Below are positions 886 to 20,804 of a DNA stretch of 37,192 bases, in pieces. The notes under the pieces are model-generated. The model searched no databases and was not told the DNA's origin. It was given only the letters and a program-made list of their open reading frames with translations. Each line of letters starts with the position of its first letter. The stretch's first letter is position 1. The position numbers and the translations under genes were made by a program. The stretch is from Blastocatellia bacterium (lineage in GTDB: Bacteria > Acidobacteriota > Blastocatellia > HR10): the NCBI GenBank assembly GCA_035573895.1, contig DATLZR010000158.1:1-37192 (forward strand). Direction: 5' to 3'.

Positions 886-3800
886 TTAGCGGAGTCGCGT
901 GGCAGGATCGCCCACCAGAATCCAACTGCGACGCAGGTCCTGCACCTCGCTACCCATTTTTGCCCGCAGCACAGCTTCGCCCACAGTCGCCAGGGTTTCA
1001 TCAAAAAGGGCGCCGATCAAAGCGCGATTTAATCGCGCCTGGTCATCCGGGAAGGTGAGACCCGACGATGCCCAGACGGCAATTGCTCCGCCGCGCGATG
1101 ATTTGACCAGGGCTTCGGCCAGGCTCTCCGTGTAGAGATCATGAAACATCCCGTTCAGGCAGGTCATGGCGACGACCAGTGGGAACCGTGGAGCATTTGT
1201 CAGCGTCTCGGCATCGGCGCTCGTAAGGACTCCCCCTCGCCACAACTCAACCGAGCCATGTCCCATATAATTGATCAGCCACTGGCCTCGAGCGAGTGCC
1301 TCAAGAAGTTTCTCCCGGGCGGCACTCGTCTGACCGCGATAAATCGTCTCGACGCGCACTTGCTCCGGCAGCAACGAGCGAAGCCGCTCACTGGCAGCCT
1401 CAAAATCGTAGCCCTCGTTGGCGTCCGCAACCAAAAGCACGCTCCGCCTCCAGTCGGCGTCCGCCAGGTTTCGTTCATAGGCGACCAGCTTGGCCACGAC
1501 GGTTTCCACTTCGGCCTCCGTCCTCACCGGGAGACGACCGATGGGAATATCAGCGACGTCATCTCCGTCGAAATCCACGAACCAATCATCCGAGGCTGTT
1601 TCCAGAAAAGTCGTGGCGACGAGCTTGGTCGGCACGTAATCGAAATCGCCAAGGCCGAGATAATTTCTCGGGTCGAAGCTGGCATCACCAACCAAAAGTA
1701 CAAAGCGGGGCGGGGTCGCCCACCGCGCACGGGCCCATGTGAGAAAACTGCGAATGGCCCAGGGACTCCTGGCTCCGAAGGCGAACTCATCGAAGATATC
1801 CTCTACATCAACCACGGCCACCGCGTATCCCTGGGATTGCCGGAGAGCCACAAGGGGAGTCAGCGCCGGGATGAATGCGCCATGCGCGATCATGACGATG
1901 TCAGCTCGATGCCGAGAATCATTCCAGTTCGACGGAGTATTTGCCGCGATCGCTCTCGGCGAAAGCACTGTGGAACGAGTAAAAGCAAAGAGCGTTCGTG
2001 GCTGTCCGCTCCCCCAGGGAACACTCGCGGTCACCGCATACTCTCCTCCGGCCCTCCGCACATGACCCGGCAAAATTTGCGGGGCTTCGGGAACCGTCAC
2101 GTCAACGACGGTGATCTCCGAATGCGCGAACCCACCAATGGTAATCTCTCTCCCCGCAGGAGCGGTCAGCCAGAGCCGATCCCCATCGGCCATGTAAGCG
2201 CGCGTGTAGGTCAGGCGAACGACGTCGAGCACAGTGATATCATTCTCTCCACCCTGACGCGTCAGCACGACCGTGTTATCCCCCTCGCGCAGCCGCGATT
2301 GCGGCACAGCGATGGAAACCGTCGTCGCCTGCTGACCGCTTAGCACGGCTTCGCCAACCGGAGTGCCGTTGAGCGCAATCTGAACGCGATGCTCGACCTC
2401 GGTGACGCCCTGAAGCGATACCTCGAGCAAAGCCTGCTGAGGAAGAGCCTGACTTCGGTGGTCCACGCGCAAAGTGATGACCACGGGTTCGGCTTCTATC
2501 GCCGGGCCGAAGAAATTGTCGGCCTCGCCGTTTTTCAGATTGGCGAAGTAGACCGTTCGTTCCTTCCGCTCAACCGTGTAGCGAAAACCATCCACAATCG
2601 AGGGTAACCCCCCGGTGAAGGAGGACACGGTCATGCGGCTCCCGGCCTCCCCGTCCGCAACGAGCCAGTAGACGCGCCGGTCGGTCCAGGGCGTATCCTG
2701 TCCCACGCCGTAAAACTCAAGGGCATCGGTCGGATCTAACCGCCCGTCCTCCTGTCCCAGCACCCGGATGGCCACTTCTCTTCCCTCCACATAGAGGCGA
2801 AGATTACGGGGATCGGTCTGAGGATTAAGTCCGGCGGCCAGAAGCTCTGGTTGCGAGATGCGATACCACCCGGGTTCAGCCACTTCAATTTTAATGGCTG
2901 CACCTGCGGCCAGCCGCCATTGGGCGGAAAGACTCTCGGCAGGGATGTTGGATGTTCTTCGAGAACGGGCACCCGATACACCGGGTGGTGAAAACATGTC
3001 CAACGGTCCTGCGCGAGTGCCCGAGGGTTCGCTGGTTCTAACCGATGCCAGAGAGCGCCCCAGCCGGCTGAGTACCGGCGTGGAGGCGACTTTTCGCGGC
3101 GGTCCGAGCCCAACCGTCGGTACAATTGGCCCATGGAGAGTGCGTTGACCGCTGACGTCAATCTCCTCGATCCAGTACCGTGGTGGACCTGTCTGTCGCG
3201 GGAGTTCATCCCACCAGATGTACTTTCGTCCGGCCGTCAATCCGATGCGCGGACCGGCCAGTAAAACCGATCCGGCAATGAGCGACTCGTTGAGGCGCCG
3301 CCGCACGCCGTCGTCTTCCCGATAAATCCGAAAGCCCAATGTATCTACTTCGTAGCCGGTGCGCCACTCCAGCAGTACACGATCCCCGTATTGGGTTGCC
3401 GTCGCTTCCTCCATCGGAGCCGTTGTCGGAAACACAGGACACGCAATATCCTCAATATCAATGTGCGAGCCGAAATTGATGTTGCTGAGCAACGTCACCT
3501 GACACGTATTGCGATTATCAACGCGATAGATACGATTCGGATTCGACGAGGAATTGCCCGTACTGATGTACATCGTCCCATCGTTGGCAATGGTAATGCC
3601 TTCGACATCGGTCAAAGAACCAAAATTGCAAAGCTCTGTCGCCACGCCATTGGATGTGTTTATAGTGATTAATTCCGATTCCCCTACTTCCGACGCATTG
3701 GTGACAGCGTAAAGCGTCCCATCAATATCCATGACGATGTCTTCGATGTGGTCGAAGACCCCATCACCGCCTCTCCCAATTTCAACGTAGTCATTTCCTC

Positions 3801-4392
3801 CGCCGAAAGCATTATTGACATGCTGGCCTGTTGTCGGGTTGATCCGGAACAAGCGGTCCCGGTTGCCCCCACAGCCCCCATTCTGGCTGACATGCCGAAC
3901 AGCCCAAAGGTTCGCTCCGGCCGTCCGTGGATCAGTGGCCAATCCATCAACACGATCGAAATTGACGGGATCATCGCAAGGACCTTGATTGGCCTGCCCC
4001 ATGGTATTATTCGATACGGCCGACCATGCGCCGGTTGTTTTATTGAGCGTCCCCAACCGTCCCGGATTGAAATCGGTCGTTCCCTCTCCGCTCAATGTTG
4101 TGGTATTGACAGCGTACAGATTCCCATTGCTCCGCTCGTAGGCCAGACTCTCGATGCCGTCCGTATTATTCTGCCCGGTTCCCGTCGAACCCACGACATT
4201 GACCTGGCCCGTCACGAGGTTAAAGGTCAGAAGCGTTTGCGGCTGATCATCGGTGGCGATGGCCCAGCAGACATTGGGGTTGGGTAAACCCTGACCCATT
4301 AATTCGTTGGGGTGCCACCAGAGGATCGCATTCAGAGTCAGAAGACAAATAAGGATGAGACCCCAAGACCACCTACGCCAACTGCGTCGCAT
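886..4392 (-). CDS. Secreted C25 (gingipain-type) cysteine peptidase, multidomain
   Basis: This 1168-residue protein begins with a positively charged, hydrophobic signal sequence (residues 1-30). Residues about 40-315 contain repeated blade-like units (GTLYAVTNAS, GTMYISTGNSS) suggesting a beta-propeller-like domain. A fibronectin-III-like segment follows at about 330-425, then pro-domain or Ig-like regions. The catalytic domain spans about 828-1168 and matches peptidase family C25: VLLVGDASFDPRNY, DFDGDDVADIPIGRLP, then the dyad His1045 in NYMGHGSVELW and Cys1078 in VAMTCLNGMF. The His-Cys spacing of 33 residues equals that of gingipain R (His211/Cys244 in mature numbering, from memory). The protein ends directly after this domain with DPATRLR, so no C-terminal sorting domain of the type IX kind is seen. 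It lies 117 bases downstream of the small peptide gene on the same strand. Processing of that peptide or general extracellular proteolysis are both possible; neither is shown. Confidence 0.9.
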   Translation of the reverse strand: MRRSWRRWSWGLILICLLTLNAILWWHPNELMGQGLPNPNVCWAIATDDQPQTLLTFNLVTGQVNVVGSTGTGQNNTDGIESLAYERSNGNLYAVNTTTLSGEGTTDFNPGRLGTLNKTTGAWSAVSNNTMGQANQGPCDDPVNFDRVDGLATDPRTAGANLWAVRHVSQNGGCGGNRDRLFRINPTTGQHVNNAFGGGNDYVEIGRGGDGVFDHIEDIVMDIDGTLYAVTNASEVGESELITINTSNGVATELCNFGSLTDVEGITIANDGTMYISTGNSSSNPNRIYRVDNRNTCQVTLLSNINFGSHIDIEDIACPVFPTTAPMEEATATQYGDRVLLEWRTGYEVDTLGFRIYREDDGVRRRLNESLIAGSVLLAGPRIGLTAGRKYIWWDELPRQTGPPRYWIEEIDVSGQRTLHGPIVPTVGLGPPRKVASTPVLSRLGRSLASVRTSEPSGTRAGPLDMFSPPGVSGARSRRTSNIPAESLSAQWRLAAGAAIKIEVAEPGWYRISQPELLAAGLNPQTDPRNLRLYVEGREVAIRVLGQEDGRLDPTDALEFYGVGQDTPWTDRRVYWLVADGEAGSRMTVSSFTGGLPSIVDGFRYTVERKERTVYFANLKNGEADNFFGPAIEAEPVVITLRVDHRSQALPQQALLEVSLQGVTEVEHRVQIALNGTPVGEAVLSGQQATTVSIAVPQSRLREGDNTVVLTRQGGENDITVLDVVRLTYTRAYMADGDRLWLTAPAGREITIGGFAHSEITVVDVTVPEAPQILPGHVRRAGGEYAVTASVPWGSGQPRTLFAFTRSTVLSPRAIAANTPSNWNDSRHRADIVMIAHGAFIPALTPLVALRQSQGYAVAVVDVEDIFDEFAFGARSPWAIRSFLTWARARWATPPRFVLLVGDASFDPRNYLGLGDFDYVPTKLVATTFLETASDDWFVDFDGDDVADIPIGRLPVRTEAEVETVVAKLVAYERNLADADWRRSVLLVADANEGYDFEAASERLRSLLPEQVRVETIYRGQTSAAREKLLEALARGQWLINYMGHGSVELWRGGVLTSADAETLTNAPRFPLVVAMTCLNGMFHDLYTESLAEALVKSSRGGAIAVWASSGLTFPDDQARLNRALIGALFDETLATVGEAVLRAKMGSEVQDLRRSWILVGDPATRLR

Positions 4393-4509: not shown

Positions 4510-4674
4510 TCATGTACCCACCGTGTAACATCCTCCCAGGCTGGTGCACTGTGACCGCATCGGCCCGGCTACCTGTTGCATCTTACAGTTGCCGAGCACG
4601 GCTTCTTCCGGTCTCAGATCAATCTTGCGGATCTCCGGCCTGACGTAGGTTTTTTTCCTTTGTCCGTTCTCCAT
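4510..4674 (-). CDS. Candidate RiPP precursor peptide, 54 residues
   Basis: A short frame starts with ATG at 4674, 23 bases after the stop of the radical SAM gene, behind AGGTGGAGG with a 4-base gap. The peptide has a charged N-terminal half (residues 1-27) with KKTYVRPEIRKIDLRPEEAV, then a C-terminal half with three cysteines (Cys30, Cys43, Cys49), glycines, and a short tail CYTVGT. Leader-like plus Cys/Gly-rich core-like organisation, size and position beside a SPASM-type maturase are what is expected of a radical-SAM-modified peptide. The PEEAVLGNCK segment gives the impression of a recurring leader/core boundary motif, but I cannot verify this. Which residues are modified (thioether, epimer or other) is not predictable from sequence alone. 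The alternative is a small unrelated protein. The start is supported by the ribosome site and the tight spacing. Confidence 0.72.
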   Translation of the reverse strand: MENGQRKKTYVRPEIRKIDLRPEEAVLGNCKMQQVAGPMRSQCTSLGGCYTVGT

Positions 4675-4697
4675 TGGTCCTCCACCTGTTTTCGGGC

Positions 4698-5987
4698 TCA
4701 GACGAGCCCTTCAGGGAAAGTGGCAAAGTGACAGGAAGAACAGGCCGTGCTGACGCAACCGCCCGAACTTCCCAAGTGAGATGCCGAAACGACCGGCAAC
4801 GGATGTCGTCGGGATTGTCCCTGTTGCAACACTTTCACGGCGCTTTGACGAAGAGCGTTATACCCTGAGCCTCCGTTGCAATATTCACAATCCCCGTGCG
4901 GAGGAACAGGAAGCCCGAAAACATAGGCTCTCAAGTGGGCCACCTGACAGAGGAAATCCACCGGCTTTTCCGGATGCCCGCTCTCGAGTTCGCCATTGGC
5001 CGGACACATCCCACACATCGGCTTTAAAGCGCAAAGGACACACTTGGTCACCTGCGTGATCTCCTTCTGGCGAACCTTCAGCAAGAACTCCTGCCAGCCC
5101 TCGCGGAAGCTGCCCCGGCGCAAATCGTACGTATCGGCGTGGGATAAAACGCAGATGCTCATTCGCCCGTATGGATCAATGGCAAATGACGTCATTCCTC
5201 CGCCACAATGGTAAATATGTTTGGTGGTTTCAGCCGAGGGAGGCAACATCTCTTTCTCGAAGAACCGCTGCCACTCGCTCGCCCGGTCGGGATCACACAC
5301 GTCCAAAGCGACAATCTCTTCCGGCGTCAACCGCACGGCCAACGGGCTCCGGGAGCAGTCAATACGCGGGTTGATCATGGCATCAAACTTGAACTGGAGG
5401 CCCAGCTCATCTTCAACGAAGCGTTTCATTTCCCACAGCTCGTGGACGTTGAGGGTTACCGCTACTGTCTTCAGCCGCAACGGTAGTCCCCGTTCAAGAA
5501 GCAACTGGATGCCTCGCAGACACCTCCGGTAAGAGCCGGGAATGCCCGTGAGCCGTTCATACGTCTCGCGGGTTCGACCATAGAGGGTGATCTCGATGGC
5601 AAATGGTCGCCACTCGGCAAGATAATCGGCCACCTTTTCGGTAATGAGTGTGCCGTTAGTAAACAGAGTAATCAATAGACCCTTTTGTTTAGCATAGGTG
5701 TAAATGTCCAGGAAATCCCGCCGGGCAAAAATCTCCCCGCCGGTGTAAAGGAGCCACAAACACCCCGCCTCAGTGATCTCATCGAGGATGCGGCAGTGTT
5801 CCTCATAGCTCAGCTCATTGTGTCGAGCTTCCACGTCATCCATCGGGAGGTTGTTATAACAGTGGGCACACGTCAGGGGACATCGCCGCGTCACCTCAAT
5901 GACGCCCTCGACGGGAATTCGCTCCCGAAGAACACGTTGATGAAATTGCCGGCTGAATTCGCTGTACCGTTGAGTCTCCATTGCCAT
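4698..5987 (-). CDS. Radical SAM/SPASM peptide maturase
   Basis: This 429-residue protein carries the radical SAM cluster motif CPLTCAHC (Cys36, Cys40, Cys43) and the GGE motif (YTGGEIF, about residue 83), with a TIM-barrel pattern following (LFTNGTLIT, FAIEITLYG). A SPASM domain at about 261-350 shows Cys261, Cys279, Cys316, Cys319, Cys325, Cys328 and Cys347, including KCVLCALKPMCGMCP, enough for one or two auxiliary iron-sulfur clusters. Such enzymes modify peptides or activate enzymes by radical chemistry. No PqqD-like recognition domain is evident at the N-terminus. An unusual C-terminal extension (about 360-429) adds CEYC (367-370) and GGCVSTACSSCHF (Cys411, Cys416, Cys419). The start at 5987 follows GGTGAGG about 8 bases upstream; a second ATG two codons later is an alternative. 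A small Cys-containing peptide gene follows 23 bases downstream, which makes peptide maturation the best inference. Confidence 0.9.
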   Translation of the reverse strand: MAMETQRYSEFSRQFHQRVLRERIPVEGVIEVTRRCPLTCAHCYNNLPMDDVEARHNELSYEEHCRILDEITEAGCLWLLYTGGEIFARRDFLDIYTYAKQKGLLITLFTNGTLITEKVADYLAEWRPFAIEITLYGRTRETYERLTGIPGSYRRCLRGIQLLLERGLPLRLKTVAVTLNVHELWEMKRFVEDELGLQFKFDAMINPRIDCSRSPLAVRLTPEEIVALDVCDPDRASEWQRFFEKEMLPPSAETTKHIYHCGGGMTSFAIDPYGRMSICVLSHADTYDLRRGSFREGWQEFLLKVRQKEITQVTKCVLCALKPMCGMCPANGELESGHPEKPVDFLCQVAHLRAYVFGLPVPPHGDCEYCNGGSGYNALRQSAVKVLQQGQSRRHPLPVVSASHLGSSGGCVSTACSSCHFATFPEGLV

Positions 5988-6136: not shown

Positions 6137-6165
6137 TTGTCCCCCTGGCGTGGTCAAAATAATAT
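6137..6165 (+). promoter_or_regulatory. Possible sigma70-type promoter for the M14 carboxypeptidase gene
   Basis: TTGTCC (6137-6142) and TAATAT (6160-6165) are separated by 17 bases; each matches four of six consensus positions. It overlaps the opposing promoter candidate, so the two genes may share an AT-rich divergent control region. The leader to the ATG at 6292 would be about 120 bases. Confidence 0.3.
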
Positions 6166-6184
6166 TCAATTACCGTCATGTCAA
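6156..6184 (-). promoter_or_regulatory. Sigma70-type promoter candidate for the radical SAM/peptide operon
   Basis: Read on the minus strand, a perfect TTGACA (6184-6179) is followed by a 17-base spacer and TATTTT (6161-6156, four of six matches). It is the best promoter in the 304-base divergent gap 5988-6291, which otherwise holds no convincing gene, only frames of 20-26 codons without ribosome sites. The leader to the radical SAM start would be about 165 bases. Confidence 0.5.
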
Positions 6185-16356: not shown

Positions 16357-18465
16357 ATGGGAAAGAAACTCACAGTAAAGGTCGTGGTCGCACTCGTCTG
16401 CTGCGCCCTGATGGGCACGGCTCTCGGTTTGGCTCAATCGCCGTCGGCAGCGGCCAATCGCCTGACGGCTATGGATGTTTTTCAGTTGGAGCTGGCGAGC
16501 GATCCGCAAATTTCGCCCGACGGAAAGCGCATCGTCTACGTTCGCCAGTTCAGTGATGTCATGACGGACCGTCGCTACTCGAACCTCTGGATCATTAATG
16601 TGGATGGGACAGACCATCGTCCATTGACGACGGGCAATTACAACGACACGTCGCCGCGATGGTCTCCCGATGGGACGCAGATCATCTACATCTCGAATCG
16701 CGACGGCTCGCCGCAGATCTATCGCCGGTGGATGGACACGGGACAGACGGCCAAGGTCACGAATGTGACGTCACCCCCAAGTGGCATCGCCTGGTCACCT
16801 GACGGCAAGTGGATTTCCTTCGCCATGCATGTTCCCGAACCGCCGCCGACAATTGCCAAGCTTCCCACGCCGCCCGAAGGAGCACGGTGGGCCGAGCCGG
16901 CCCGTGTGATTGATAAGCTCGTTTATCGGTTCAATGGCATCGGCTATCTCAAGCCGGGATACACGCATCTGTTCGTCGTTCCGGCTGACGGCGGCACGCC
17001 GCGTCAAATTTCCAGCGGGAAATTTCATCACGGGGGCATCGGCTTCAATGCCAGTGAGGCGGTGTGGACGCCCGATGGCAAATTCCTCATCATATCGGCC
17101 AATCGCCACGAGGACTACGAGGTGGAAGCTCGCAACACCGACATCTACGAATTCTCGGTGACTGACGGATCGGTACGGGCGCTGACCACCCGTAAAGGAC
17201 CCGACGGCTCGCCGGCCATTTCGCCCGATGGACGACTGATCGCGTATGTGGGCTATGATGATCGTTATCAAGGCTACCAGGTGACCAAGCTCTACGTGAT
17301 GAACCGTGATGGGAGTGGCTCGCGCGTCATTTCGGCATCGCTGGATCGGGATGTGGCCAGCCCCCGCTGGGCGCCGGACGGAAGCGCCATCTACTTCCTC
17401 TCGGACGATCAGGGGAATACCGGTCTGTACGTTGCCAGCCTGGACGGGAAAATCCGGCGACTCGTGAACAACGTCGGCAGCGGGATGAGCGCCTACAGCG
17501 GAGGGGGAGCGTTCACCCTGGCCCGGAATGGGACCTTCGCCTTCACCTATAAGACGCCCTATATCCCCGGTGACATCGCAGTGGCGAGCATCACCGATCC
17601 GACCCCGCGCATCCTCACCGCCGTTAACGAGGATCTCTTCGCCACCCGGAAGCTCGGACGGGTGGAAGAAATTTGGTACACATCATCCAAGGACGGTCGG
17701 CGGATTCAGGGATGGATCATAACGCCGCCCGATTTCGATCCCACCAAGAAGTATCCCCTCATCCTGGAGATTCATGGCGGACCCTTCGCCAACTATGGCG
17801 ACCGATTCGATCTGGAGAAGCAACTGATGGCTGCCAGCGGCTACGTCGTGCTTTATACGAACCCGCGAGGGAGCACGAGCTATGGTGAAGAGTTCGGCAA
17901 CCTCATCCATCACGCCTATCCCGGCGATGATTTTTACGATCTCAATTCCGGCGTGGACGCCATGGTGGCCAAAGGGTACATTGATCCCGATCAGCTTTTC
18001 GTGACCGGCGGCAGCGGCGGTGGCGTGCTGACCTGCTGGATGATCGGGCGTACGACGCGATTTCGCGCTGCTGTCACGGTTTATCCGGTGATCAACTGGT
18101 ACAGTTTCGTTCTCACGACCGACATCCCCTGGACGGTGAAATACTGGTTCCCCGGTTTCCCCTGGGACCACGTCGAGCACTACGAGAAGCGATCTCTTTT
18201 GTCGGTGGTGAAGAACGTCAGGACGCCGACGATGATTCTCACGGGCGAGGCCGATTATCGCACGCCGATGTCGGAGTCGGAGCAATACTATGCGGCGCTC
18301 AAGCTGCTCGGTGTGGAGAGCGTTCTCGTGCGTGTTCCGGACGAGCCGCACGGGATTTCGCAGCGACCCAGTCACCACATCTCAAAAATCCTCCACATCA
18401 TCGGGTGGTTCGATCGGCACCGGAAACCCTCAGGCGTTGTCGAAGCAAACACCACCTCACGGTGA
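16357..18465 (+). CDS. S9 prolyl-oligopeptidase-family peptidase (first copy)
   Basis: This 702-residue secreted protein starts behind GGAGGAGGTGAACG. A signal peptide (VVVALVCCALMGTALGLAQ) is followed by a seven-blade beta-propeller with repeated WSPDGT/WSPDGK units (about residues 45-430). An alpha/beta hydrolase domain has the triad Ser553 in GGSGGG, Asp633 in GEADYRTP and His665 in DEPHGI. The oxyanion-side motif EIHGGPFANYG is also present. S9B/S9C enzymes release dipeptides or acylated residues from short oligopeptides. It resembles the second S9 gene at 32102-34120 closely enough to be a paralogue. The likely site of action is the periplasm. Confidence 0.94.
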   Translation: MGKKLTVKVVVALVCCALMGTALGLAQSPSAAANRLTAMDVFQLELASDPQISPDGKRIVYVRQFSDVMTDRRYSNLWIINVDGTDHRPLTTGNYNDTSPRWSPDGTQIIYISNRDGSPQIYRRWMDTGQTAKVTNVTSPPSGIAWSPDGKWISFAMHVPEPPPTIAKLPTPPEGARWAEPARVIDKLVYRFNGIGYLKPGYTHLFVVPADGGTPRQISSGKFHHGGIGFNASEAVWTPDGKFLIISANRHEDYEVEARNTDIYEFSVTDGSVRALTTRKGPDGSPAISPDGRLIAYVGYDDRYQGYQVTKLYVMNRDGSGSRVISASLDRDVASPRWAPDGSAIYFLSDDQGNTGLYVASLDGKIRRLVNNVGSGMSAYSGGGAFTLARNGTFAFTYKTPYIPGDIAVASITDPTPRILTAVNEDLFATRKLGRVEEIWYTSSKDGRRIQGWIITPPDFDPTKKYPLILEIHGGPFANYGDRFDLEKQLMAASGYVVLYTNPRGSTSYGEEFGNLIHHAYPGDDFYDLNSGVDAMVAKGYIDPDQLFVTGGSGGGVLTCWMIGRTTRFRAAVTVYPVINWYSFVLTTDIPWTVKYWFPGFPWDHVEHYEKRSLLSVVKNVRTPTMILTGEADYRTPMSESEQYYAALKLLGVESVLVRVPDEPHGISQRPSHHISKILHIIGWFDRHRKPSGVVEANTTSR

Positions 18466-18581
18466 CCGATGGGGAGTGAACCCTCGGCGAAGGTCGGGGG
18501 CCCGAACTGGCTCCCGACCCAGGAGGAGTGATATGAAGCTCACGCACTGTCAGAGAAGTGGAGGCTCAACCTGGCTGGGCT

Positions 18582-20804
18582 TCAGGAAGATTCCTGTTGT
18601 GCGAGAAGCGTTCGCATCAGTCGCACGACATCCTGCTGGTGGAAGGGCTTCTCCAGGAAGCGACTTCCAGTCTGCTGCAAAAAGGCGCGTGTATCCGTAC
18701 TGATCACATCGCCGGTGATGAAGACGATTTTCTTAGCCAATGTCCCATTGAATCGCTTCAGTTCCTGGTAAAGCTGCTGGCCATTGACCAGCGGCATCTT
18801 GACGTCGCAGAAGATTAAGTCGTAGACCCGGCTCCTGAGTTTGGCCAAAGCTGCGCGGCCATCGGTGGCCGTTTCAACCGAGTGACCTTCGCTCGCGGCG
18901 ATAGTCTGGAGAAGTCGGACGATGCTCGGTTCATCGTCAATGACGAGAATCTGTTTGGGCGCAGTCGGCGGAAGAGACTGAACCTCGTCCGGTTCCGATG
19001 AAGGGTGTTCATTGAGTTCCGTAACGAGGGGAAGCTCGATGACGAACTCCGCTCCTCCCTCGGAGCGGTTTCCGGCGGAGATTCTTCCGCCATGCTGCTC
19101 GATGATGCTATGGGAGATGGACAAGCCCAGGCCCGTTCCCTGACCGACCGGCTTGGTGGTGAAGAAGGGCTCGAAAATACGATGGAGAAGATCTGGCGGA
19201 ATTCCCGGTCCGTCGTCCGCCACGATGATTTCAACCAGGGTATTTGTGTGCGATGGCAGATCGGCGGACGCCGGTCGTTGGCCGTTGGAAGGCTGTGAGG
19301 CCGGCGAGACTTCACCCGTGAGGGACTTGCAGTCGTGCTCCGGTCGAAGAGCCTTCACCCGCGTGCGAACGAATAGATGGCCGCCACCATGCGCCTGCAT
19401 GGCCTGTTCCGCGTTAATGATGAGGTTGAGGAAAACCTGCTGAAGTTGCGCTCCATCAGCGACGATGAGAGGCAATTGCGGGTCGAAGTCAGTGACGATC
19501 TCAATGTTATTCACCTTCAGTTCGTAGGAGCGCAGGGCCAGGGTGCGCTCCATCAGCTCGTTGATGTTGACGGGGGATCTCTCCACTGGATGCTGGCGAG
19601 CGAAGGCGAGCAAGTTGCGGACAATCTGACTGGCCCGTCGAGCTGCTTCGTGGATGGCCGTGAGTCCTTCTTCCAGCAACTCTTCTGGCGGATGGGACTG
19701 CTGGCACAACAACTCGCTGTAGCCGATGACAGTGGTCAGCGGGTTATTCAACTCGTGAGCGATCCCCGAAATGAGCTGCCCGAGGGCAGCCATCTTCTCG
19801 GTGTGAAGGATCTGCTGCCGGAGCCGGTGTGACTCCGTCATATCCCGAACGATGATCAGAACAGCCGGTTTTCGCCAGTAGTCAATGGCGCAGGCGTTCA
19901 GGTTGACGGGGATCGCCGTCCCGTCTTTGCGCACCATCATGATATCTAGCGGAGCAGTCATCCCCTGAGGAGATCTCCACAGGTGGTGACGAGCAACCGT
20001 TTCCCGATCACGAGGATGAACCAGATCAAGGAAGCAGAGGTGGCGTATTTCCTCCGCCGTGTAGCCGAACAAGGCCAATCCGAAGGGATTGAGATATTGG
20101 AACCGTCCGTCCTGAACGATGGCGACGGCATCGTTGGCACTATCAATGAGTGTCCGGAACTGACGCTCAGACTCGCGGAGCTTTTCCGCTTGATGACGGG
20201 TTTCGTTGAGGAGTTCGGCGACATCTCGATATAAGGCGGCATTTTCAATGGCCACACCGATGATATCGCCCGCGGCGGTGAGGAACTGCCGGGCATCAGC
20301 ATCAACCTGTTTGGGGTGAGGGTGAACTATGAGCAGGACTCCCAGGGTGCGACCCTTCGACCGAAGAGGGATGGCGGCGAAAAACCAGTATCCCTCGCGC
20401 CGCAAGGATCGGCTGAGCGGATGACCATCTCCGGTGGGTATTTCGCCGACAGCCGGTTCTCCTGTCTGCATCACCCGGCCGATACAGGTGTCGCCGGGAT
20501 TAATGCGTTCGATCTGCGATACCGTGGCCGGTGAAATTCCCGCAGACGCCTTCAGAGTCAAATCCCCCGTAAAAACATCGGTGAGGAAAATCATCCCCGC
20601 ATCACACTCCATCAGATGGAGGACTTGCGAGATGGCGCTCTCGAGCGTTTCCTGAAAATCGAGAGACTGACTGACCGATGAGGCGATGGAGTTAAGGGCA
20701 GCCAGTTGTCGGCTATGTTCGACGATGCGGCGACTCCACTGGAGGATCCGCTCGTGCGTCTGAGTCGAAGCGACATTCTCTTGCATCCGATCTTGCCACA
20801 TCAT
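18582..20804 (-). CDS. Hybrid sensor histidine kinase (GAF-PAS-HisKA-HATPase-receiver)
   Basis: The 740-residue protein has no signal peptide or membrane segment, so it is probably cytoplasmic. In order: a GAF domain (about 40-195), a PAS domain (about 215-325, ending IIVRDMTE), a HisKA domain with phospho-acceptor His350 in GIAHELNNPL, an ATPase domain (about 440-595; NLIINAEQAM, DDGPGIP, GTGLGLS) and a C-terminal receiver (about 615-735) with phosphorylatable Asp667 in FCDVKMPLVNG and Lys in LEKPF. It may sense a small molecule or redox cue. It is the last gene of the minus-strand run that begins with the sigma factor, 127 bases after the subtilase. Membership of that operon is uncertain. 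The start codon follows AAGGG. Confidence 0.94.
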   Translation of the reverse strand: MMWQDRMQENVASTQTHERILQWSRRIVEHSRQLAALNSIASSVSQSLDFQETLESAISQVLHLMECDAGMIFLTDVFTGDLTLKASAGISPATVSQIERINPGDTCIGRVMQTGEPAVGEIPTGDGHPLSRSLRREGYWFFAAIPLRSKGRTLGVLLIVHPHPKQVDADARQFLTAAGDIIGVAIENAALYRDVAELLNETRHQAEKLRESERQFRTLIDSANDAVAIVQDGRFQYLNPFGLALFGYTAEEIRHLCFLDLVHPRDRETVARHHLWRSPQGMTAPLDIMMVRKDGTAIPVNLNACAIDYWRKPAVLIIVRDMTESHRLRQQILHTEKMAALGQLISGIAHELNNPLTTVIGYSELLCQQSHPPEELLEEGLTAIHEAARRASQIVRNLLAFARQHPVERSPVNINELMERTLALRSYELKVNNIEIVTDFDPQLPLIVADGAQLQQVFLNLIINAEQAMQAHGGGHLFVRTRVKALRPEHDCKSLTGEVSPASQPSNGQRPASADLPSHTNTLVEIIVADDGPGIPPDLLHRIFEPFFTTKPVGQGTGLGLSISHSIIEQHGGRISAGNRSEGGAEFVIELPLVTELNEHPSSEPDEVQSLPPTAPKQILVIDDEPSIVRLLQTIAASEGHSVETATDGRAALAKLRSRVYDLIFCDVKMPLVNGQQLYQELKRFNGTLAKKIVFITGDVISTDTRAFLQQTGSRFLEKPFHQQDVVRLMRTLLAQQESS

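Follow-up and report, generated by a model that had tools for sequence, protein, structure and literature searches.

Phosphorylated lasso peptides such as paeninodin, pseudomycoidin and bsf have precursors with a C-terminal Ser and a leader carrying a YxxP motif, which is the recognition motif of the RRE in lasso and other RiPPs (PMC12710340), and their partner proteins include a discrete PqqD-type RRE (B1) and an HprK-like kinase. Lasso kinases phosphorylate the C-terminal Ser (PMC8498205, PMC10368454), those of the paeninodin type accepting the linear precursor largely irrespective of its remaining sequence (PMC8498205), and in pseudomycoidin a nucleotidyltransferase puts sugars on the C-terminal phosphate (PMC8498205). 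The characterized lasso kinase BsfK targets Ser3, not the C-terminus (PMC10368454). SkfB, CteB, AlbA, StsB and SuiB are SPASM/Twitch radical SAM maturases of small peptides, the PqqE/PqqD/PqqA system pairs a SPASM enzyme with a discrete PqqD, and SynChlorMet comprises an HprK-like protein (ScmC), a PqqD-like protein (ScmD) and radical SAM enzymes (ScmE/F). The locus described here and its relatives resemble each of these systems in part. With the phosphorylated lasso peptides they share the YxxP leader, the discrete PqqD-type RRE, the C-terminal Ser and a kinase with the same motifs, as well as a B2 peptidase and a nucleotidyltransferase in some loci; with the radical SAM maturases, the enzyme type, its fold and an apparent small peptide substrate; with PQQ, the discrete PqqD beside a SPASM enzyme; and with SynChlorMet, all three kinds of protein.

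The window, the whole 37,192-nucleotide stretch that we analyzed, is the entire contig C158 of a 3.9 Mb draft genome. A 429-residue radical SAM/SPASM maturase with an ATG start is encoded on its minus strand (4698-5987; Pfam PF04055, E=2.2e-17). Just 23 bases further on, on the same strand, follows a 54-codon frame that also starts with ATG (4510-4674, minus), is preceded directly by its own ribosome-binding site (AGGTGGAGG, 4679-4687, minus) and encodes Cys30, Cys43 and Cys49. This arrangement was read in the sequence exactly as the original prediction had described it, and the promoter that it placed upstream was found as well: a sigma-70-like TTGACA-17-TATTTT about 170 bases upstream of the enzyme gene (6156-6184, minus), which matches the consensus at 10 of 12 positions and is a consensus match only.

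Both the CxxxCxxC motif that binds the [4Fe-4S]-SAM cluster (Cys36, Cys40 and Cys43; 5859-5882, minus) and a complete seven-cysteine SPASM domain (C261-x12-G274-x4-C279, C316-x2-C319-x5-C325-x2-C328, C347; 4947-5207, minus) are present in the enzyme, and these cysteines, together with G274, are invariant across 31 enzyme sequences, which identifies it as a SPASM radical SAM protein whose SPASM domain is predicted to hold two auxiliary clusters. Its best NCBIfam models (AhbD, NirJ2, mycofactocin, PqqE and ScmE) gave weak and mixed matches, all far under cut-off. An AF2 model (pLDDT 87.5) has anSME, SuiB, SkfB, CteB, ChlB and PqqE as its nearest folds, with the ranking tied among the first five. 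The maturase of the window ends in a disordered Gly/Cys-rich tail (4698-4800; SSGGCVSTACSSCH), as do those of L045, L046 (AGCGTGGCGSCS), L050, L060, L066, L067 and L072; such a tail could bind metal or serve as a redox-sensitive tether.

The peptide has a charged N-terminal part with a YxxP motif (Y10-V-R-P13; 4636-4647, minus), expected to be the sequence recognized by a PqqD/RRE, and a predicted core that runs from Cys30-Lys31 to Thr54, with three cysteines and a C-terminal Gly-Thr (4513-4587, minus). We searched for its family with a profile built from six peptides and iterated over 43 regions around related enzymes. In 34 of these regions a relative directly follows the enzyme on its strand; L049 also has one, divergently oriented. 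P13, C30, K31 and C43 are invariant in the family and Y10 is conserved in at least 90% of members, giving a signature of Y/W-x-x-P, a hydrophobic and acidic stretch (LRPEEAVLG in the close branch), Cys-Lys, two further cysteines and a C-terminal Gly/Ala-Ser/Thr that directly precedes the stop codon in all 33 complete precursors. The cores of these 33 hold three conserved cysteines, and none of their Trp, Tyr or His residues is conserved. PEEAVLGNCK, which had been proposed to mark the boundary between leader and core, is indeed the best-conserved segment within the close family; a cut at this point is conjectural, and the invariant Cys30-Lys31 could be the first core residues.

Synonymous change exceeded nonsynonymous change (pN < pS) in 539 of 561 peptide pairs, with dN/dS of about 0.15-0.4 in the closest pairs. 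From these codon comparisons the family is under purifying selection. Used as a pattern, the peptide motif was absent from 694 kb of shuffled sequence, and most related loci carry a copy of it. This null, the conserved adjacency and the excess of pS over pN together argue that the frame of the window is a real gene and not a chance frame. Neither the peptide alone nor a 24-member alignment gave a convincing match in NCBIfam or Pfam, and the peptide had no match in plasmids. One family member matched the paeninodin lasso model, but at an E-value (0.056) too poor to be relied on. Variant precursors of the types MKKQWQTPELVVLFKGRPEETLLCHCK... and KRVKWTTPKLKILSRLTPEEFILTRCK... are found in L081 (10079-10264, plus) and L077 (14497-14736, minus), and suggest a wider family in which W may replace Y and four or more cysteines occur.

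Relatives of the enzyme are found in Acidobacteria, Candidatus Aminicenantes and MAGs of Deltaproteobacteria/Desulfobacterales. Within the phylum, the enzyme is encoded in 48 of 396 genomes and the peptide in 49: 43 genomes have both, five the enzyme only, six the peptide only and 342 neither (Fisher p about 3e-45, a value that overstates independence because the genomes are related). A small precursor is thus conserved with the enzyme, in 43 of its 48 genomes, as well as beside it. Five of the 43 enzyme regions hold no recognizable peptide (L007, L010, L073, L078 and L083). Two of them, L078 and L083, are truncated because their contigs are short, and in the other three the adjacent peptide seems genuinely missing, so that enzyme homologues without a nearby peptide, an outcome that the original prediction had named as refuting it, form a small minority. 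The L007 and L010 enzymes, from Desulfobacterota, are 61-67% identical and are the only examples from beyond the phylum in this analysis. Their surroundings (L007:2332-5546 and L010:1028-4526, in Deltaproteobacteria/Desulfobacterales MAGs) encode an S24-like protein in both cases, PqqD and a kinase in L007, and an ABC transporter. Conserved adjacency, genome co-occurrence, conserved cysteines and the leader-type YxxP, to which the signs of selection can be added, make it almost certain from comparative sequence evidence that the peptide is the substrate of the SPASM enzyme, as had been predicted.

Partner genes were counted by tblastn with representative neighbours, since simple gene calling is unreliable in these high-GC loci. 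A small PqqD-type protein is encoded in at least 33 of the 43 regions, mostly 0.65-1.3 kb upstream of the enzyme centre. It belongs to Pfam PF05402 (E=3e-15), and its nearest NCBIfam models are those of lasso PqqDs, below their cut-offs. An HprK-like protein, in most cases the next gene after the peptide, is present in 38 of 43 regions. Matches to HprK models are weak, and the proteins keep a His, a GxSGxGK(S/T) P-loop and an Asp-Asp, the kinds of residues that are important in a lasso kinase (PMC10368454); a predicted structure (pLDDT 92.9) has the HprK/PEPCK fold. By sequence and model, they are predicted to be kinases of the lasso type. S24/S26 (signal-peptidase-like) proteins occur in 23 of 43 regions. 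Few loci have the remaining lasso-type genes: a B2-type leader peptidase adjoins the enzyme in L049, L055 and L056 (NF033537, above the curated cut-off) and probably also in L080, and NTP_transf_5 was found with Pfam in L054 and L066. ABC exporters accompany the module in some related loci. The statement that the system has no RRE or ABC exporter therefore holds for the window, and does not extend to its relatives, with their discrete PqqD-type RRE, or to its genome, which encodes PqqD elsewhere. The kinase, the B2 peptidase and the C25 peptidase that adjoins the peptide gene (below) had been missed.

Unlike the phosphorylated lasso peptide systems, these loci combine a radical SAM/SPASM enzyme with a precursor containing three cysteines, and an Asn synthetase-type lasso cyclase (PF00733) was absent within 9 kb of the enzymes in 17 genomes, as far as their contigs reach. 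The radical SAM enzyme seems to replace the cyclase, and with this defining protein absent we did not file the system among the lasso peptides. Filing with the sactipeptide and ranthipeptide maturases was also rejected, with scores far under cut-off for StsB (78 of 625 bits) and AlbA (62 of 850 bits). The present enzyme may work like these maturases, from which the loci differ in having no fused N-terminal RRE, a discrete PqqD and a kinase in the cluster. The same holds for SynChlorMet (ScmE 94, ScmC 18-21 and ScmD 22-40 bits against cut-offs of 400, 125 and 100); here, as far as seen, each locus has one radical SAM enzyme, and the precursor matches no model. The Cys-rich core and the kinase and peptidases of the cluster set the system apart from PqqE/PqqD/PqqA, even with PqqE among the nearest structures. 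A search of the literature, mostly of papers outside subscription, gave no account of the combination of peptide, maturase and HprK-like kinase or C25 peptidase, although an earlier description is possible. With no NCBIfam or Pfam family either, the claim that the system is undescribed stands for the sources searched.

The locus in the window itself lacks PqqD, kinase, exporter and S24 or B2 peptidase, and a B2 peptidase is absent from the whole genome. A second enzyme, 52% identical to that of the window, is encoded on contig C156 together with its own peptide (MKKKPYRKPEIQEV...CALLGT), a PqqD and an S24-like protein; the one kinase of this type in the genome is encoded there too. In addition, an orphan PqqD on contig C30 (19125-19328; L086:1471-1797, minus), between BirA-like and GNAT-like genes, resembles the PqqDs of radical SAM loci and is a candidate, on sequence grounds, for the in-trans partner of the window enzyme. 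Since RRE and kinase are both encoded on other contigs, any action that they have on the window peptide must be in trans. A further cassette lies on contig C5 (about 18,000-20,500; L088:519-3053, plus), with overlapping frames for an HprK-like protein, a PqqD-domain protein whose C-terminal tail is Cys-rich and signal-like, and an NTP_transf_5-like protein; a radical SAM enzyme was not seen within the short stretch read. Other neighbours in the window (gamma-glutamyltranspeptidase, M14 carboxypeptidase, porin-like and transglutaminase genes) are not conserved at related loci and are thus not considered part of the system.

The gene directly behind the peptide encodes a C25 (gingipain/PorU-like) peptidase of 1168 residues with a signal-peptide-like N-terminus (886-4392, minus; PF01364, E=2.3e-88). 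Its relatives in the PDB are PorU (6za2) and the gingipains, and its catalytic dyad, His1045 and Cys1078, has a 33-residue spacing (1159-1260, minus; GHG...MTCLNG in the translation). With 259 bits against a cut-off of 420 for the PorU type IX secretion sortase (NF033707), we file it as a C25 peptidase and not as PorU. The N-terminal region of the window protein (3200-4392) has weak phytase-like/DUF4394 matches, unlike its relatives, where this part is a different, beta-rich-looking region. It is the only C25 gene of its genome. In 18 of 43 regions the enzyme has a C25 gene no more than about 9 kb away, on the strand of the enzyme, or on that of the peptide in L049; this gene is found downstream in the close branch (+4 to +6 kb) and immediately upstream in a distant branch (-1.3 kb). 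Genomes with close enzymes have a C25 gene in 15 of 17 cases. C25 genes are widespread in the phylum (135 of 396 genomes) and their co-occurrence with the enzyme is modest (28 of 48 genomes with the enzyme versus 107 of 348 without, p=3e-4), so the weight of the link rests on proximity. Gingipains cleave after Arg or Lys; Lys31 is invariant, and the C25 peptidase might cut after this residue. Neither C25 peptidases nor gingipains appear in a review of the proteases that remove RiPP leaders.

Thioether formation is the chemistry that we favour for the enzyme, because Cys is, besides Lys31, the only conserved reactive side chain of the core, and crosslinking of the core cysteines is on this comparison probable. 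The peptide may instead be modified without thioethers, through C-C or C-O bonds or epimerization, or its cysteines may serve only to anchor it at Aux I. The chemistries of SPASM enzymes are diverse, the similarity of this one to characterized families is weak and mixed with tied folds, and CteB binds a leader Cys at its Aux I cluster (PMC6231123). The three conserved cysteines of every core, set against the lack of any conserved Trp, Tyr or His in 33 precursors, make such a chemistry fairly unlikely. Less likely still, and by a wide step, the peptide could be the source of a small cofactor, as PqqA and the mycofactocin precursor are, and not a secreted peptide. The nearest enzymes include PqqE and mycofactocin maturases, and PqqD is a partner here too, but what is retained is the whole three-cysteine core with its fixed C-terminal Ser/Thr and not a short Glu-Tyr or Val-Tyr end, and the precursor is accompanied by a kinase, S24/S26, B2 and C25 peptidases and, at some loci, ABC exporters.

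That the window pair is a stranded remnant of a system that now functions from the complete paralogous locus on C156 has only a small chance of being right. The window locus lacks the PqqD and kinase that C156 combines with enzyme, peptide and S24-like protein. Yet its enzyme and peptide frames are intact, with all catalytic and cysteine residues kept, and so is its C25 gene; moreover, the enzyme shares about 60-68% identity with its orthologues from other families of this phylum against 52% with its own paralogue, and has thus been maintained as a line of its own. The C25 link in relatives could mean something besides processing. The position of the gene on either side of the module, depending on the branch, the signal-peptide-like N-terminus and long extra regions of the protein, and the presence of alternative leader peptidases (B2, S24) at some of these loci would fit a cell-surface partner that is inhibited or labelled by the mature peptide or becomes joined to it, whereas the intact gingipain-type His and Cys and the invariant Lys31, a site of the gingipain kind, point to a protease acting on the peptide. 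We regard the surface-partner role as rather doubtful and processing of the peptide as a possible but tentative assignment.

Our combined findings suggest a Cys-crosslinked RiPP with lasso-type partners in its family, a probable phosphorylated C-terminus and possible C25 processing, an overall reading that we consider likely. A discrete PqqD-type RRE, supplied from elsewhere in the window genome, would hold the YxxP leader and present it to the SPASM enzyme, which would form a 5'-deoxyadenosyl radical and join sulfurs of core cysteines to carbons as thioether crosslinks. The HprK-like kinase would phosphorylate the invariant C-terminal Ser/Thr, a step that by analogy with lasso kinases is slightly favoured for the family and that is conceivable, with less assurance, for the window genome, by the kinase in trans. 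Leader removal in the family would fall to a lasso-B2-type or S24/S26-type peptidase. In the least certain step, the secreted C25 peptidase, the strongest candidate in the window for this role, would finish the exported window peptide, possibly cutting after Lys31. Our guess is that the product is secreted and serves at the cell surface or in competition.

The new points that emerge are a lasso-type partner set without the cyclase, an invariant C-terminal Ser/Thr and the C25 link. They raise the speculative and, at present, doubtful idea of a separate RiPP class in which the lasso support set (PqqD-type RRE, B2-type peptidase, C-terminal-Ser HprK kinase and NTP_transf_5) serves a radical SAM/SPASM enzyme, yielding a peptide with Cys crosslinks and a phosphorylated C-terminus, to be completed extracellularly by a dedicated gingipain-like C25 peptidase. 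The precursor signature, YxxP ... EEAVLxxCK ... C ... C ... Gly/Ala-Ser/Thr-stop, is recognizable together with its partner set and is unnamed in the libraries searched. Its occurrence suggests that the lasso kinase and leader machinery are portable and can work as a module with another ring-forming enzyme. It also suggests that secreted C25 peptidases may help RiPPs to mature in Acidobacteria-type bacteria, from which few peptides have been characterized.
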